Shown here piece by piece: positions 2,467 through 9,880 of a stretch of DNA of 22,837 bases. The notes under the pieces are model-generated. The model saw only the letters and a program-made list of their open reading frames with translations. It was not told the origin of the DNA and did not search any database. The position numbers were made by a program, and so were the translations under genes. Position 1 is the stretch's first letter. Each line of letters begins with the position of its first letter. This stretch comes from a virus, in IMG/VR virus record IMGVR_UViG_3300020445_000084, positions 1-22,837 of that record; one strand, given 5' to 3'.

Positions 2467-4178
2467 TGATAAAATTTGAAAAGGTTCGTTGGAAGAATTT
2501 TCTTTCAACAGGGAACCAATTTACAGAAATAGAATTAAATCGTAATGATACAACACTTATCATAGGTGAGAATGGAGCTGGTAAATCCACAGTTCTTGAT
2601 GCACTATGTTTTGCATTATTTGGAAAACCATTTCGTAGTATTAGTAAATCTCAATTAGTCAATACAGTTAATGCTATGGAAACTGTGGTTGAGATTGAGT
2701 TTAGTATTGCAAGTAGAAGATATAAAATTGTTCGTGGTATCAAACCAAATATATTTGAGATATGGCAAAACGATAAGATGTTAAATCAAGAAGCCAATAA
2801 TCGTGACTATCAAAAAATACTAGAACAACAAATACTTAAACTAAACTATCGTTCATTTACACAAGTTGTAATATTAGGTAGTTCAACCTTTGTACCATTT
2901 ATGCAACTAAAGGCAAAATTTAGGAGAGAGGTTGTTGAGGATTTATTAGATATCAAAATATTCTCAATAATGAATATGTTATTAAAACAAAGATTAAAAG
3001 ATTTAGTAGTTGAATTACAAGAAGTAGAATATAATTATAAGTTATGTAGTGAAAAGATAATTATGCAAGAAACTTATATTGAAGATATCAAAAAGAATAA
3101 AGATTTAATCATAAATGAAAAGAATGATAATTATCATCATAATTCATTAGAGTTAGATAAGAAAAAAAATGAAAAGAAAGAATTAGAAAGAATTAATAAG
3201 AATTTATTTGAATCAGTCACAGACCAGATTAGTATAGAATCAAAAGATGTAAAATTAAAAGACTTGCGTTCTACACTTACAGAAAAACAAAAAGAAAAAG
3301 ATAAGATGATTAAATTTTTTGAAGAACATGATGACTGCCCAGTTTGTGAACAAGATATACCTAAAGACTTTAAAACTAAAATGATAGATATCAAAAAAGG
3401 TGAATCGAATGAAATTGTAGATGGTCTTACAAAAATGGAAAAAGAATTAAGTAAAACTGAATTAAGATTAAATGAGATAAAAAAAGTCACAGGTAATATA
3501 CAAACCAATTCAATAGATATTGCAAGTTTAAATACATCTATACAAGAATTAGAAAAATGGAATATGAAAATAGATAATGAAATTACAGAATTAGAAAAGA
3601 GTACACTTAATAATTCTGATGAAGAAAAATTAAATACATTTAAAAAAGAATTTGATGATATTGAATTACAGAAGAAAAGTTTAAGAGAAGAAAAAAATTA
3701 TTCAGAAGCATCTAGAGCCATGTTGCAAGATACAGGTATTAAGACTAAAATTATTAAACAATATTTACCTATCATGAATCAGTTGATTAATAAGTATTTA
3801 GCGTCAATGGAATTTTATGTAAACTTTACTTTAGATGAAAATTTTATAGAAACAATAAAATCAAGATTTCGTGATAACTTTAATTATGATTCATTTAGTG
3901 AAGGTGAAAAAATGAGAATAGATTTAGCACTTTTATTTACATGGCGTGCAATTGCTAAAATGAAAAATAGTACAAATACAAATCTATTAATACTAGATGA
4001 AATATTTGACAGTTCATTAGATAGTGCAGGAACAGATGAGTTCCTAAAAATATTAAACACACTAGAAGGTGAGAATGTATTTGTGATAAGTCATAAACAA
4101 GATGTATTAGTGGACAAATTTAAACACACACTTAAATTTGAGAAGAATAAAAACTTTAGTAAGATGATATCAGCATGA
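2466..4178 (+). CDS. 46: recombination endonuclease subunit gp46 (SbcC/Rad50-like ATPase)
   Basis: ATPase partner of gp47 in the end-processing nuclease. At 570 residues it is close to T4 gp46 (560). Walker A is GENGAGKST (34-42). Two long charged coiled-coil segments, roughly 170-285 and 300-400, flank a zinc-hook CPVC motif (Cys291 and Cys294) where two molecules dimerise. The ABC signature FSEGEK lies at 477-482, Walker B LLILDE at 507-512, and the D-loop SSLDS follows. The layout is that of a compact Rad50 family member and it appears intact. Its ATG overlaps the gp47 stop by one base, and its own TGA overlaps the deformylase ATG (ATGA). Confidence 0.96.
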   Translation: MIKFEKVRWKNFLSTGNQFTEIELNRNDTTLIIGENGAGKSTVLDALCFALFGKPFRSISKSQLVNTVNAMETVVEIEFSIASRRYKIVRGIKPNIFEIWQNDKMLNQEANNRDYQKILEQQILKLNYRSFTQVVILGSSTFVPFMQLKAKFRREVVEDLLDIKIFSIMNMLLKQRLKDLVVELQEVEYNYKLCSEKIIMQETYIEDIKKNKDLIINEKNDNYHHNSLELDKKKNEKKELERINKNLFESVTDQISIESKDVKLKDLRSTLTEKQKEKDKMIKFFEEHDDCPVCEQDIPKDFKTKMIDIKKGESNEIVDGLTKMEKELSKTELRLNEIKKVTGNIQTNSIDIASLNTSIQELEKWNMKIDNEITELEKSTLNNSDEEKLNTFKKEFDDIELQKKSLREEKNYSEASRAMLQDTGIKTKIIKQYLPIMNQLINKYLASMEFYVNFTLDENFIETIKSRFRDNFNYDSFSEGEKMRIDLALLFTWRAIAKMKNSTNTNLLILDEIFDSSLDSAGTDEFLKILNTLEGENVFVISHKQDVLVDKFKHTLKFEKNKNFSKMISA

Positions 4179-4690
4179 GTGAAATTTCAAAATTAGTAGA
4201 ACCTAACAATCCTGCTTTATATGTTCGTTTAGAAGGTATAAGTAAAGAATGTGATAGAGAAAAAGTCAGACAAGATTTAATAGATTCTATGGAGCATTAT
4301 CAAGGAGTTGGTTTATCTGCAAATCAAATAGGTGTTATGGAAAGAGTTTTCATAATGTATGAAGATGTTGATACTAGAAAAATACTTACTGCTTTTAATC
4401 CTAAAATATTAGAAGTATCAAAAGAACAAGTATTAATAGATGAGGGTTGTTTATCATTCCCTGGTATATGGTTAAAGATAAAAAGGCCTTATGCAATCAA
4501 AGTTGAATTTGAAGATGAGAAAGGAAAGAAACATGAGAAAGAATTAGTTGGTTTACCATCTAGGGTATTTCAACATGAATATGACCATATGGAAGGTACA
4601 GACTTTACAAGACTTGCAAGTCCTTTAAAATTAGAAAGGGCAATCAAAAAATTGAACAAGAAACTTACTAAATTAAGAAAGTCCAAATGA
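4175..4690 (+). CDS. def: peptide deformylase
   Basis: Metalloenzyme that removes the formyl group from the N-terminal methionine of new proteins. All three family motifs are present in this 171-residue protein: GVGLSANQIG (44-53), EGCLS (90-94, Cys92 as metal ligand) and QHEYDHMEG, whose His134 and His138 are metal ligands and Glu135 the catalytic base. It keeps a charged C-terminal helix (KLERAIKKLNKKLTKLRK), unlike the shortest phage deformylases. The ATG overlaps the gp46 stop, so it is the last gene of the gp55-gp47-gp46 operon. Phage deformylases are known from marine T4-like phages, where they are thought to sustain turnover or maturation of host or phage proteins during infection. The exact target here is unknown. 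Confidence 0.95.
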   Translation: MSEISKLVEPNNPALYVRLEGISKECDREKVRQDLIDSMEHYQGVGLSANQIGVMERVFIMYEDVDTRKILTAFNPKILEVSKEQVLIDEGCLSFPGIWLKIKRPYAIKVEFEDEKGKKHEKELVGLPSRVFQHEYDHMEGTDFTRLASPLKLERAIKKLNKKLTKLRKSK

Positions 4691-4705
4691 GAATCATTCT
4701 CATTT
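4685..4705. promoter_or_regulatory. Fur-box-like palindrome 1
   Basis: A perfect inverted repeat with 10-base arms around a single central C. The core is TGAGAATcATTCTCA (4688-4702), a 7-1-7 arrangement differing from the classical Fur consensus TGATAATnATTATCA at one position per arm. It covers the deformylase stop codon and lies about 90 bases upstream of the promoter at 4796. As RNA it could fold into an 8-bp stem with a 5-base loop, but no U-run follows, so a terminator is less likely. Binding by a host Fur-family regulator is an inference. Confidence 0.55.
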
Positions 4706-4795
4706 AGTCTGTAAGTCATTGATATTGTTCACTTTTTGTACAATCTGATTTCTTAAAAACTTAAAAATCCTATATAAATCAATAACTTATAACCC

Positions 4796-4825
4796 TTGAC
4801 AAAACTTGTTTCGACCTGTTATACT
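4796..4825 (+). promoter_or_regulatory. sigma70-like promoter for the CobT/VWA gene
   Basis: TTGACA (4796-4801) is followed by 18 bases and TATACT (4820-4825). The stretch TTGACAAAACTTGT is identical to that at 7326, and ACCTGT recurs just before both -10 elements. The predicted start near 4832 leaves a leader of about 25 bases containing a weak GAGAG ribosome-binding site before ATG 4857. A near-match to the late box (TATAAATC, 4773-4780) lies upstream but is not a perfect octamer. Confidence 0.65.
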
Positions 4826-4856
4826 GGTTATGTAAAATCAAAAATCGAGAGAATTT

Positions 4857-7283
4857 ATGAGATATCAAAAAAATCAAAAAATCAAGTTAGATAATATCAA
4901 AGATAAATCAACATTAGTCAAATTATTGGCCGAAGAAGATTTATCTGTAATATATCAAAAAGTTCCTACTGCCAGTTTTAATGTAAAAACTAGGGTAGTC
5001 ACTTTACCTATTTGGAAAGATAAATCAGAAGATGTTGCAGATATGATGTCACTTCATGAAGTGGGTCATGCTTTAGAAACACCTGAAGATATGATGAAGA
5101 AAGGTGTAGATAAAGGAATCAAACATTCTTTCTTAAATGTTTTAGAAGATGTTAGAATTGAAAAAATGATTCAAGATAGATATCTTGGGTCAGTAAGAAT
5201 ATTTAAGAAAGCATATGATGAATTATTAGATAAAGACTTTTTCAATATTAAAGGAAAAGACTTATCAAAACTTAATCTGATTGATAGAATTAATATGCAT
5301 TATAAAAATGTACCAAATGTTCCTTTTCTTGATAAAGAACAAGAATGGGTTAAAAAAGCTAATGAAACTAAAACATCAGATGATGTTGTTAATTTAGCTG
5401 AAAAATTACAAGCTTGGATGAAAGCTCAACCTGAACAACAAGAATCAGATGATATGTTTTCTTTAGATTTAATAGAAGATGAAAATGGTGATATTGAAAT
5501 CGAAAGAGAAGGTGATAAAGATTCAAAAGAAAAAGATTCTGGTGATGAAAAATCAGATGAAGATTCAGATTCAGATTCAAAAGATGATTCAGATTCAGAT
5601 ACTGGTGAAAAATCAGAAGATGAAAGTAAGGATTCAAAAGATACAGAAAAAGATGATTCAGAAGAAGAAAGTAATACCAAACAGGGTAATGGAGCTGAAG
5701 GTGATGAAGATGTTGATGGTATATCTGCGAAAACAGATAAAAACATGAATAGAAGTATGAGAGAAAGCCTTGATGAAAATGCAACAGAAATTGAACATAT
5801 CAATATTCCTAAAGTTAATCTTGATGAGGCAATAATTGATTATAAAACAATTAATAAAGAATTGACAGAACATTATGGTTCTAGAGTAAGGGATGAAGAA
5901 GGTAAAAAATATATGGAATGGATTAAAAAAGATATTGTTAAATATCAAAAAGAACAAGCTCCTACAATTTCATATATGGTTAAAGAATTTGAAATGAAAA
6001 AAGCTGCAGACCAATATAAGAGAGCAACAATCTCTAAAACTGGTCAATTAAATATGGATAAACTACATAGTTATTCTTACAATGAAGACATATTCCTAAA
6101 AATGACTAACTTGCCAGGAGCAACGAATCATGGATTGGTTATGTTCGTTGATTGGTCAGGTTCTATGGCAGATAATTTCCATAATACTATTAAACAGACA
6201 TTGAATTTAGTTTGGTTCTGTAAAAGAGTGAATATTCCTTTTGAAGTTTACGGATTTACAAATGGATATAGTAAAAGAGATGATACTAATAAGAATATTG
6301 GAGCACAAAAACCAAAAGAAAATGATTTAATTGTAAATCAATGTACTTTACTGAATATGTTATCAAGTAGAGCTAATAAAAATGAATTTAATGAAGGTTT
6401 AATTAATTTATGGGCAATCAGTCATTATTATAATGAAAGATATGGTTCAGATTATTCGAATCAAGATGATGGTAAATATGTATATCCAATATACATACAC
6501 GAAAAATACAATTTACATAGTACACCATTAAATCATTCAATAATTTATGCAATGGATTTAATACCTAAATTTAAAAAAGATAATGGAATACAAAAAGTCC
6601 ATACAGTATTTTTAACTGATGGTTCAAGTAATAGTGTTGATAGTAAGTATGAATGGAATATGGATGATAATAGACCATATTCTGAAAGATATGATAAAGA
6701 TGGTTATAAAAAACCTTTACCAGATAATTATGAAGGTTCATATTCTAGAAAATCTTTCAAAGGTAGAGATACAAGGATTTCTCTTGTAGACCCGATTACT
6801 AAAAAGAAATGGTTGCAAAAACCAGAAGAAGATAGATATGATGAAGGTAAAATGATTTATGATAGATATGCGTTTTCATATGAACCACAAACGAATATCT
6901 TAATACAATTCTTGAAAGCAAGAGTACCAGATATGAATGTAGTAAACTTCTTTATTGCTGGTAGAAATAAATCAGGTACAATTCAAAGATATGATTTAGC
7001 ACATATTTTTGGATTAAATACCTACAATGATTCAGATATGGAAAAGATTAAAAGTATTCAAAAAGAGATTAAAAAGAATAATGTTGCAGTATGCACAACT
7101 CAAGCTTGGGATGAGCTATATGTTTTACCAGGTGGAGAAAAATTAAATACTTCGACAGATGATATGTCAGAAGTACAACCTGGAGCTAAAAAAGCAGAAT
7201 TGAAAAAGGCATTCAAAAAAATGTCCACAGGTAGAAAAATGAATAGACCACTGTTAAACAAGTTTATAGGAATGATTGCTTAA
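4857..7283 (+). CDS. CobT-like VWA protein with predicted metallopeptidase motif
   Basis: An 808-residue protein in three parts. An N-terminal region carries HEVGH (67-71) followed by NVLEDVRIE, the pattern of a zinc metallopeptidase-like domain. A middle stretch (about 205-285) is an extreme Asp/Ser/Glu/Lys low-complexity linker. The C-terminal von Willebrand A domain has an intact MIDAS start DWSGS (Asp432, Ser434, Ser436) and a later FLTDGSSNS. Acidic linker plus VWA is the plan of cobaltochelatase CobT and of MoxR-partner proteins. The next gene is the matching AAA+ partner. Marine phage homologues are often labelled CobT or peptidase. Whether the pair handles metal chelation or acts as a protein-remodelling machine cannot be told from sequence. 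The start follows a weak GAGAG site and a clear promoter; the stop overlaps Fur-like palindrome 2. Confidence 0.85.
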   Translation: MRYQKNQKIKLDNIKDKSTLVKLLAEEDLSVIYQKVPTASFNVKTRVVTLPIWKDKSEDVADMMSLHEVGHALETPEDMMKKGVDKGIKHSFLNVLEDVRIEKMIQDRYLGSVRIFKKAYDELLDKDFFNIKGKDLSKLNLIDRINMHYKNVPNVPFLDKEQEWVKKANETKTSDDVVNLAEKLQAWMKAQPEQQESDDMFSLDLIEDENGDIEIEREGDKDSKEKDSGDEKSDEDSDSDSKDDSDSDTGEKSEDESKDSKDTEKDDSEEESNTKQGNGAEGDEDVDGISAKTDKNMNRSMRESLDENATEIEHINIPKVNLDEAIIDYKTINKELTEHYGSRVRDEEGKKYMEWIKKDIVKYQKEQAPTISYMVKEFEMKKAADQYKRATISKTGQLNMDKLHSYSYNEDIFLKMTNLPGATNHGLVMFVDWSGSMADNFHNTIKQTLNLVWFCKRVNIPFEVYGFTNGYSKRDDTNKNIGAQKPKENDLIVNQCTLLNMLSSRANKNEFNEGLINLWAISHYYNERYGSDYSNQDDGKYVYPIYIHEKYNLHSTPLNHSIIYAMDLIPKFKKDNGIQKVHTVFLTDGSSNSVDSKYEWNMDDNRPYSERYDKDGYKKPLPDNYEGSYSRKSFKGRDTRISLVDPITKKKWLQKPEEDRYDEGKMIYDRYAFSYEPQTNILIQFLKARVPDMNVVNFFIAGRNKSGTIQRYDLAHIFGLNTYNDSDMEKIKSIQKEIKKNNVAVCTTQAWDELYVLPGGEKLNTSTDDMSEVQPGAKKAELKKAFKKMSTGRKMNRPLLNKFIGMIA

Positions 7284-7298
7284 TGAGAATCATTCTCA
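7284..7298. promoter_or_regulatory. Fur-box-like palindrome 2
   Basis: TGAGAATcATTCTCA is a perfect 7-1-7 inverted repeat identical in its 15-base core to palindrome 1. It begins directly after the CobT-like stop codon and ends 27 bases before the -35 element at 7326, a position where a regulator could affect the CobS-like gene promoter. The Fur-family assignment rests on resemblance only. Confidence 0.55.
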
Positions 7299-7325
7299 AC
7301 AAGAATTTATGGCAGAAATTGGGGG

Positions 7326-7354
7326 TTGACAAAACTTGTCCAACCTGTCATAAT
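7326..7354 (+). promoter_or_regulatory. sigma70-like promoter for the CobS-like gene
   Basis: TTGACA (7326-7331), 17 bases, CATAAT (7349-7354, five of six). It is preceded by a G5 run and shares TTGACAAAACTTGT and ACCTGT with the promoter at 4796. The predicted +1 is base 7361, which is the A of an ATG that opens a 34-codon ORF. The leader before the CobS-like start is about 100 bases and contains Fur-like palindrome 3. Confidence 0.7.
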
Positions 7355-7360
7355 GGTAGT

Positions 7361-7465
7361 ATGATGAGAAATAGAGAAATGAGAGATTATCTTCCAAATG
7401 AGAATCATTATCATTTAGATTTCAAGTCAAATTCAAAAAAAATAAATGAGGTAAATATAATATGA
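7361..7465 (+). CDS. possible leaderless small ORF (34 aa) coupled to the CobS-like gene
   Basis: The frame starts with ATG ATG exactly at the predicted transcription start of the 7326 promoter and ends with TGA overlapping the next gene's ATG (ATGA). The predicted peptide is polar, with NENHYHLDF in the middle and a lysine/asparagine-rich end. The same frame is open further upstream to 7283, but that part would run through the promoter and is unlikely to be translated. A leaderless upstream peptide could couple translation to the ATPase gene. It may equally be a chance ORF in the leader, since nothing in its sequence is recognisable. Confidence 0.3.
   Translation: MMRNREMRDYLPNENHYHLDFKSNSKKINEVNII
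7399..7413. promoter_or_regulatory. Fur-box-like palindrome 3
   Basis: TGAGAATcATTATCA is a 7-1-7 repeat with one arm mismatch. Its right half, ATTATCA, matches the classical Fur half-site exactly. Flanking bases extend the resemblance to palindrome 1 (AAA on the left, TTT on the right). It lies 45 bases downstream of the -10 at 7349, in the transcribed leader of the CobS-like gene, a position that would favour repression by road-block if a protein binds. Confidence 0.5.
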
Positions 7466-8661
7466 TAAGTTATGATACATTAAATGCTGTACAAAAATCA
7501 TTCGTAGACCTTGCCACTGAAAAGTATGGTGAGAATGCGATTCTTTCTAGAAAAGAAATGAATGATGTATGTACTGAAAATGGATTACCGACAACCGCGT
7601 GGTTGAAGGCTTATAAAATTGGCCACGGTCAATATCAAATACCTTCTAGTAGTGTAAACTCTAGTGAGGTTCCAATGACACCAAAACAGACTATTAGTAC
7701 GGACAATTCTAATACTACTGTAAATTTGATGATGAATACAGAAACTCAAAATCTGATTCCTAGTCATTTTGAAGGGTTTGTACCATGGGGTCATTGTTCA
7801 ACAATTAAAAAGATTATTCAATCAAGGATGTTCTATCCCGTTTTTATAACAGGTTTATCAGGTAATGGTAAGACATTGATGGTTGAAGAATTACATAGTC
7901 AATTAAAAAGAGAATTAATAAGAGTAAACATTACCATTGAAACTGATGAAGATGATTTACTTGGTGGATTCAGATTAATAGATGGTGAAACTAAATTCGT
8001 TCCTGGCCCTGTTATTCAGTCAATGGAAAGAGGATGTACTTTACTTCTTGATGAGTGTGATTTGGGTAGTAATAAACTACTTGCATTACAACCAGTTCTT
8101 GAAGGCAAGGGTGTGTTTCTGAAAAAGATTAATAAATGGATAACACCAAAACCTGGTTTCAATGTGATTGCAACTGCCAATACTAAAGGTAAAGGTTCTG
8201 ATGATGGTAGATTTGTTGGAACGAATATTCTGAATGAGGCATTCCTTGAAAGATTTGCGATTACAATAGAACAACCATATCCTAGTTCAAAAGTTGAGAA
8301 GAAAATCATACTTGGTTCTATGGAAAAGTATGGTAAGATAGATGATAAGTTTGCTGAGAACCTGTGTACATGGGCAGAGGTTATTAGAAAGACTTTCTAT
8401 GATGGTGGAGTTGATGAGTTAATTTCAACCAGAAGACTTGACCACATAGTTAAAGCGTTCTCAATCTTTAAAGATAAGATGAAAGCTATCGAGTTATGTG
8501 TATCAAGATTTGATGATGATACGAAAGAATCATTTGTAGATTTATACACCAAGGTGGATGCTGGAGAAGATATACAAGGTATATCGGATTCTGATGATGA
8601 AAATCTAGATGACCCAGTAGATGAAACTGTTAATGAAGATGGTGGAGCAGTAAACTACTAA
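7462..8661 (+). CDS. cobS: CobS-like MoxR-type AAA+ ATPase
   Basis: A 399-residue AAA+ ATPase of the CobS/MoxR group. Walker A is GLSGNGKT (131-138), Walker B TLLLDECD (193-200), sensor 1 ATANTKGKG, and an arginine-bearing segment NEAFLERF follows. The DDLLGGFRLIDGETKFVPGPV loop is characteristic of CobS-like chelatase ATPases. In bacteria CobS works with the VWA protein CobT to drive cobalt insertion into the corrin ring. Here the upstream gene is a CobT-like protein, giving a two-gene AAA+/VWA pair, while no catalytic CobN is visible in the window. cobS is a recurrent gene of marine T4-like phages. A cobalamin role is possible but unproven. The last ~35 residues are acidic. A short 6-bp hairpin (8666-8682) and a strong terminator follow the stop. 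Confidence 0.9.
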   Translation: MISYDTLNAVQKSFVDLATEKYGENAILSRKEMNDVCTENGLPTTAWLKAYKIGHGQYQIPSSSVNSSEVPMTPKQTISTDNSNTTVNLMMNTETQNLIPSHFEGFVPWGHCSTIKKIIQSRMFYPVFITGLSGNGKTLMVEELHSQLKRELIRVNITIETDEDDLLGGFRLIDGETKFVPGPVIQSMERGCTLLLDECDLGSNKLLALQPVLEGKGVFLKKINKWITPKPGFNVIATANTKGKGSDDGRFVGTNILNEAFLERFAITIEQPYPSSKVEKKIILGSMEKYGKIDDKFAENLCTWAEVIRKTFYDGGVDELISTRRLDHIVKAFSIFKDKMKAIELCVSRFDDDTKESFVDLYTKVDAGEDIQGISDSDDENLDDPVDETVNEDGGAVNY

Positions 8662-9853: not shown

Positions 9854-9880
9854 AGGAACAGGTTGACAATACCTGTTCCT
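9854..9880. promoter_or_regulatory. operator-like palindrome enclosing a promoter -35 element
   Basis: AGGAACAGG (9854-9862) and CCTGTTCCT (9872-9880) form a perfect 9-bp inverted repeat. The 9-base centre starts with TTGACA, the -35 hexamer of the next promoter. It could be a repressor operator, or an RNA hairpin ending the hsp20 transcript, though only a short pyrimidine run follows. The right half contains ACCTGT, which also occurs just upstream of the -10 elements at 4820 and 7349. Confidence 0.6.

Follow-up and report, generated by a model that had tools for sequence, protein, structure and literature searches.

Three Fur-type boxes around cobT and cobS

We analyzed a 22,837-nucleotide stretch of viral DNA (IMG/VR record IMGVR_UViG_3300020445_000084, positions 1 to 22,837; hereafter, the window) in which three short palindromes surround the genes for a CobT-like and a CobS-like protein (cobT and cobS). 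These palindromes are likely operators for the host iron regulator Fur, which one T4-like phage clade appears to have placed beside a single class of sigma70-type, probably early, promoters that includes those of cobT and cobS. A sequence-only reading had pointed out three Fur-box-like 7-1-7 palindromes here and no others in the window. An exact scan agreed on both counts, recovering TGAGAATCATTCTCA twice and TGAGAATCATTATCA once. The next-best match (≤3 mismatches) was at 3125-3139 only, with three mismatches. All three sites fit the 15-bp 7-1-7 inverted repeat TGAKAATNATTMTCA exactly, of which 0.004 copies are expected in the window by chance under a first-order Markov model; the corresponding figure for TGAGAATNATTCTCA is 0.0005. 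The boxes and the promoters and genes beside them are as follows:

4685..4705, no strand assigned: Fur-type box 1, TGAGAATCATTCTCA at 4688-4702 inside a 21-bp palindrome
4796..4825, + strand: sigma70-type promoter of cobT, TTGACA-N18-TATACT, with the TGT/CTGT spacer motif
4857..7283, + strand: CobT-like protein, with HEVGH metallopeptidase motif and VWA-type DWSGS motif
7284..7298, no strand assigned: Fur-type box 2, TGAGAATCATTCTCA, immediately 3' of the cobT stop
7326..7354, + strand: sigma70-type promoter of cobS, TTGACA-N17-CATAAT
7399..7413, no strand assigned: Fur-type box 3, TGAGAATCATTATCA, inside a possible small leader open reading frame (ORF)
7462..8661, + strand: CobS-like AAA+ ATPase (MoxR/AAA_5 type), Pfam AAA_5, E 3.7e-16

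Box 1 is a perfect 10-1-10 palindrome of 21 bp (AAATGAGAAT-C-ATTCTCATTT), and its TGA doubles as the stop codon of the peptide deformylase gene, def. From its end (4702) to the -35 element of the cobT promoter (4796) is 93 bp. Box 2 ends 27 bp ahead of the -35 element of the cobS promoter (7326), and box 3 starts ~38 bp past the point where transcription from that promoter is expected to begin, leaving boxes 2 and 3 on either side of it. Box 3 is absent in the related locus L120 and half-deleted in L004. The two promoters, previously described as related, are good sigma70-type matches with a common spacer motif, TGT-N5/6-CTGT. From sequence, we regard all three sites as predicted Fur operators.

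The boxes accompany one promoter class in one clade

A 123.7-kb relative (G001) carries seven boxes, three at cobT/cobS, two after a cyclase gene, and two elsewhere, and no copy of the reversed control pattern. With the exception of the third cobS box, every one precedes a sigma70-type promoter. Across the clade loci, all 40 distinct TGT/CTGT promoters had a box within 130 bp upstream, a count that is partly biased because some of these loci were found via the box, compared with 1 of 16 other TTGACA promoters in the same loci. The window promoter at 9863, which precedes the gene for the first 2OG oxygenase, is an example without a box. When only G001 is considered, four of its five TGT/CTGT promoters had a box, and sister phages have the same promoter class and no boxes. 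More widely, 94 viral stretches have a box with a TTGACA close by, compared with 21 when the palindrome was scrambled. The motif is not scattered through coding regions: almost every clade box, like boxes 1 and 2 of the window, either lies between genes or starts at a stop codon, and box 3 falls in a possible small ORF. Fur-type control had been proposed for the cobT/cobS pair; boxes are indeed present there, but the set of promoters served is wider, as the seven G001 boxes and the cyclase gene indicate.

Conservation was assessed in panels retrieved by protein rather than by box. In a CobS-alignment scan of 80 loci, intact boxes preceded cobS in seven of seven close relatives (≥77% identity; some of these contigs were already in the comparison), box 2 included, and a box was found upstream of cobT in all six whose cobT upstream region is covered. 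Box 2 is intact in L004 also. At 72-73% identity (n = 3), a decayed box such as TGAGAATCATTCCTA remains, and none of the remaining, more distant CobS relatives in the scan had an intact box. In a panel built on the cyclase protein, which has a CHASE2 domain, the box lay at the end of the gene or immediately beyond it in 12 of 13 loci at ≥90% identity and in 0 of 65 below 90%, although a few of these 65 retain TAAGAATCATTCTCA or TAAGAACCATTCTCA in the same position. The boxes mark one phage clade, not cobT/cobS alone, and a trait confined to one clade and present at several loci together is as expected for a trans-acting reader protein.

The box was also the best conserved block in an alignment of ten orthologous cobT upstream regions, with 17 of 19 box columns invariant vs. 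33 of the 91 columns that separate it from the -35. Its position at cobT is constant to within 1-2 bp across the clade; even in L098 and L102, where def is replaced by another gene, the box is still 92-93 bp from the -35. Two loci taken as carriers of a box between cobT and cobS (L022 and L106) were wrongly assigned, their upstream gene being a nucleotidyltransferase-like ORF.

The cyclase itself combines CHASE2 with a class III nucleotidyl cyclase in ~614 aa (L006 8707-10548 and orthologues), and its gene often ends on a TGA that is part of a Fur-type box. The gene adjoins FecR-domain and curlin-like genes, with CsgG in related loci. In G001, cobT (L102 4419-6869) and the cyclase gene (L125 1268-2842) are each broken into several frames, perhaps through errors in sequencing, perhaps through true decay.

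The same 15-mer stands at bacterial iron genes

The window encodes an IscU with 81-86% identity to beta- and gammaproteobacterial IscU, Methylophilales being among the best matches. A search for the 15-mer at iron genes of the likely host, as had been suggested, found it in beta- and gammaproteobacteria of plausible host groups. In the G011 family (Nitrosomonadales, which we take as Methylophilaceae), TGAGAATNATTCTCA occurred in 28 of 120 genomes, and the reversed control in none. Box-adjacent genes in this family and a few others included ten TonB-dependent receptors, FeoB, FTR1, and three Fe/Mn superoxide dismutases (SodB). In some larger genomes of the G011 family, boxes have ETF or LysR-type genes as neighbors, so that iron genes do not account for every copy. 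Two marine gammaproteobacterial groups had boxes before a solute-binding protein, which we read as FbpA-like (iron-type), and before iscR, where the box is 31 bp ahead of a TTGACA, like the phage arrangement. As a positive control, within 600-625 kb of the Escherichia coli K-12 genome, the sole site with ≤2 mismatches falls in the fepB-entC gap.

The phage boxes thus share with the bacterial Fur box of beta- and gammaproteobacteria (7-1-7, TGATAATnATTATCA) the same 15-mer, a free central base, and the GAG/GAT exchange. They differ in lying 11-102 bp upstream of the -35, at genes that are not iron-uptake genes. No Fur-family gene (PF01475) was found in the window, G001, or relatives, all incomplete records, and a phage-encoded Fur was rejected because that profile gave nothing in any of them. 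Capture of host metal-responsive control, as originally proposed, is therefore supported by boxes that are conserved, promoter-associated, and identical to those at iron genes, and by the lack of a phage Fur; the capture itself we infer.

It is improbable that some other regulator, phage-encoded or host, shares this sequence by coincidence. The clade specificity of the boxes, their bond with a phage promoter class, and several small box-adjacent phage proteins without a Pfam match would all suit such a regulator, but boxes at bacterial iron genes have exactly this sequence and the same GAG/GAT degeneracy.

Boxes in other phages and the possibility of a decoy

No match to TGANAATNATTNTCA was found in Melnitz, HTVC008M, Mosig, AG-345-F15, T4, KVP40, T7, or S-PM2. 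With a 31-base query around the palindrome, similar sites were found in many cultured phages. Phage phi92 has seven TGANAATNATTNTCA sites, three of which, all exact boxes, lie within 67 bp of a gene-free stretch (136993-137059, equal to L433 1485-1551), and T5-like Salmonella phages have three to four boxes, some in gene-free stretches near the ends. This lytic coliphage, phi92, carries more Fur boxes near its termini; the loci behind the phi92 and T5-like findings are L431, L432, and L433. We found no description of the phi92 or T5-like arrays in the open-access literature. In a second phage lineage (L187 4921-4935; L204 8776-8790; GC content 43-44%), cobS and cobT are divergent and a single exact box lies between them.

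Such arrays in gene-free stretches sustain a second explanation, in which the boxes, growing in number with the phage DNA, titrate host Fur and so derepress host iron uptake, their position at promoters reflecting intergenic space only. The clade boxes are off the core promoter, highly symmetrical, and several per genome, as a decoy might be. However, they are tied to a single promoter class, are mostly missing from other strong promoters, and keep their position at cobT to within 1-2 bp, and about seven boxes per genome are few relative to a typical Fur pool. We consider a decoy role doubtful for this clade.

Box variation resembles that of a Fur operator

In the ten orthologues, the only variable box columns were the center (C, G, or A) and position 12 of the 15-mer (C or A). 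Low-GC viral loci gave 23 distinct sites with one mismatch, and 12 of these had G4>T or the mirror change C12>A, compared with an expected share of ~1 in 21 if all changes were equal. GAGAAT/GATAAT is a common alternative within Fur boxes. With its free center and GAG/GAT exchange, this variation is like that of Fur operators and unlike that of RNA hairpins.

The boxes frequently start at or beside the stop codon of the upstream gene, and site 1 folds at -8.6 kcal/mol, as might be expected of RNA hairpins acting as terminators or 3' end stabilizers. Yet all 12 of the G4>T/C12>A variants (seven from the T4-like clade) disrupt the stem with no compensation, no T-run follows the sites, site 3 and the two L004 sites fold weakly (-2.9 to -3.5 kcal/mol), and box 3 is away from any gene end. 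Hairpins are consequently a very improbable explanation, and an intrinsic terminator was rejected because the T-run is missing and the variants break the stem. For boxes 1 and 2, the hairpin, chance, and coding readings are all unlikely. Chance or coding coincidence draws on box 3, around which a possible leader ORF encodes a conserved NENH peptide, but it is already refuted for boxes 1 and 2, which are conserved and intergenic (box 1 shares a stop codon only) against a chance of ~0.004 per window, and its overall probability is negligible.

How Fur might act and what weighs against this

If the boxes are Fur operators, host Fur with its metal would bind them and shift the output of the linked phage promoters according to cell iron. 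Damping in iron-replete cells could follow if Fur spread outward from the box or formed a loop over the promoter, and boxes 2 and 3, flanking the cobS promoter, would allow looping or a block to elongation. Activation seems to us somewhat less likely than such damping, given that the boxes lie at varying distances from the -35 with no constant helical phase. A helically phased activator site was rejected, as the spacing to the -35 does not repeat.

Several observations weigh against Fur control. The boxes lie outside the core promoters, unlike in classical Fur repression, and so fit simple steric repression poorly, and their distance from the -35 (11-102 bp) keeps no helical phase. One G001 promoter of the same class has no exact box, and box 3 falls within a possible small ORF. 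Part of the clade set was retrieved through the box itself, which makes the protein-retrieved panels the unbiased ones. The IscU tree gives no host placement beyond beta- and gammaproteobacteria, and the nearest isolate, Melnitz, infects a methylotroph, yet its genome is box-free. Still, the position off the core promoter counts against classical repression and not against Fur binding, since overlap with the promoter is usual for Fur sites but not obligatory.

The CobT-like and CobS-like proteins and their surroundings

The two genes had been called a chelatase-like pair, which now seems doubtful. The CobT-like protein combines HEVGH and DWSGS motifs, its relatives carry the annotation "peptidase," and it had no Pfam match at an E-value cut-off of 0.001. 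CobS is of the AAA_5 type. No CobN-like ORF was noticed among the window ORFs, although these cover part of the phage genome and were not searched with a CobN profile. Sequence features suggest that "chelatase pair" is probably a misnomer for a metallopeptidase-VWA protein and a MoxR-type AAA ATPase.

By ORF reading and Pfam, the window is an AT-rich fragment of a T4-like marine phage. Its genes include gp55, gp47, gp46, def, the CobT-like and CobS-like genes, Hsp20, three 2OG-Fe(II) oxygenases, gp45, gp44, IscU, a RimK-type ATP-grasp, and gp43, with gp names assigned from ORFs aided by comparison with cultured phages. Compared by gp47, the cultured phages closest to it are the methylophages of the Melnitz type (58%), followed by Pelagibacter phage HTVC008M (52%). 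Among T4-like phages, the ORFs point to the marine Kyanoviridae type, and no signs of lysogeny were found in the window. This phage group has several iron and sulfur proteins, with genes for rubrerythrin and TusA in the 123.7-kb relative (L126 6053-6472 and 3881-4099) and for IscU in the window. A perfect TTGACA-N17-TATAAT lies on the minus strand of the window from 767, oriented opposite to gene order. Two further features are near the boxes:

4773..4779, + strand: T4-type late promoter-like TATAAAT, kept in relatives (alignment)
7361..7465, + strand: possible leaderless leader ORF of 34 codons, holding box 3

TATAAAT is named as the late consensus following the usage of PMC9004378. The TGA stop of the leader ORF overlaps the cobS ATG (ATGA), and related peptides occur in seven relatives (L102, L031, L037, L229, L233, L234, and, shortened, L004). 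Relatives also keep a TTGTACAAT-like repeat located between box 1 and the promoter of cobT (window 4724-4745), possibly a second regulator site.

Iron as a host signal for phage promoters

In marine T4-like cyanophages, PhoB (pho) boxes allow a host nutrient regulator to read phage promoters. That system concerns phosphate and PhoB, whereas ours would concern iron and Fur; what appears to be new here is iron in place of phosphate among host-regulator sites on phage promoters. The only phage Fur box that we found in the open-access literature precedes the sitABCD operon of lambda-like prophages, where it is proposed to bring a phage operon into the Fur regulon of the host (PMC6969025). The likeness is a Fur box carried by a phage, but there it serves metal-transport cargo of temperate phages, and here core and small-gene promoters of T4-like phages. 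The Melnitz methylophage paper reports a curli operon (PMC9004378), and curli-type genes occur in the box clade as well; the difference is that the Melnitz genome is without any Fur-type box.

The boxes suggest that host iron status may help set the infection course of these phages. A broader proposition is about as probable as its opposite: that a lytic T4-like marine clade built its own host-Fur regulon of at least seven boxes across several promoters, including those of cobT and cobS, with iron tuning the infection program, and that Fur-box sets arose independently in other lytic phages (phi92-like, T5-like enteric, and the second cobS/cobT lineage). Iron limits growth across much of the ocean. 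If this reading is true, a lytic phage that reads the host iron sensor would tie iron supply to infection dynamics, an equivalent role to that which pho boxes are thought to play for phosphate. The exact Fur-box arrays in cultured coliphages such as phi92 make this question testable in E. coli.

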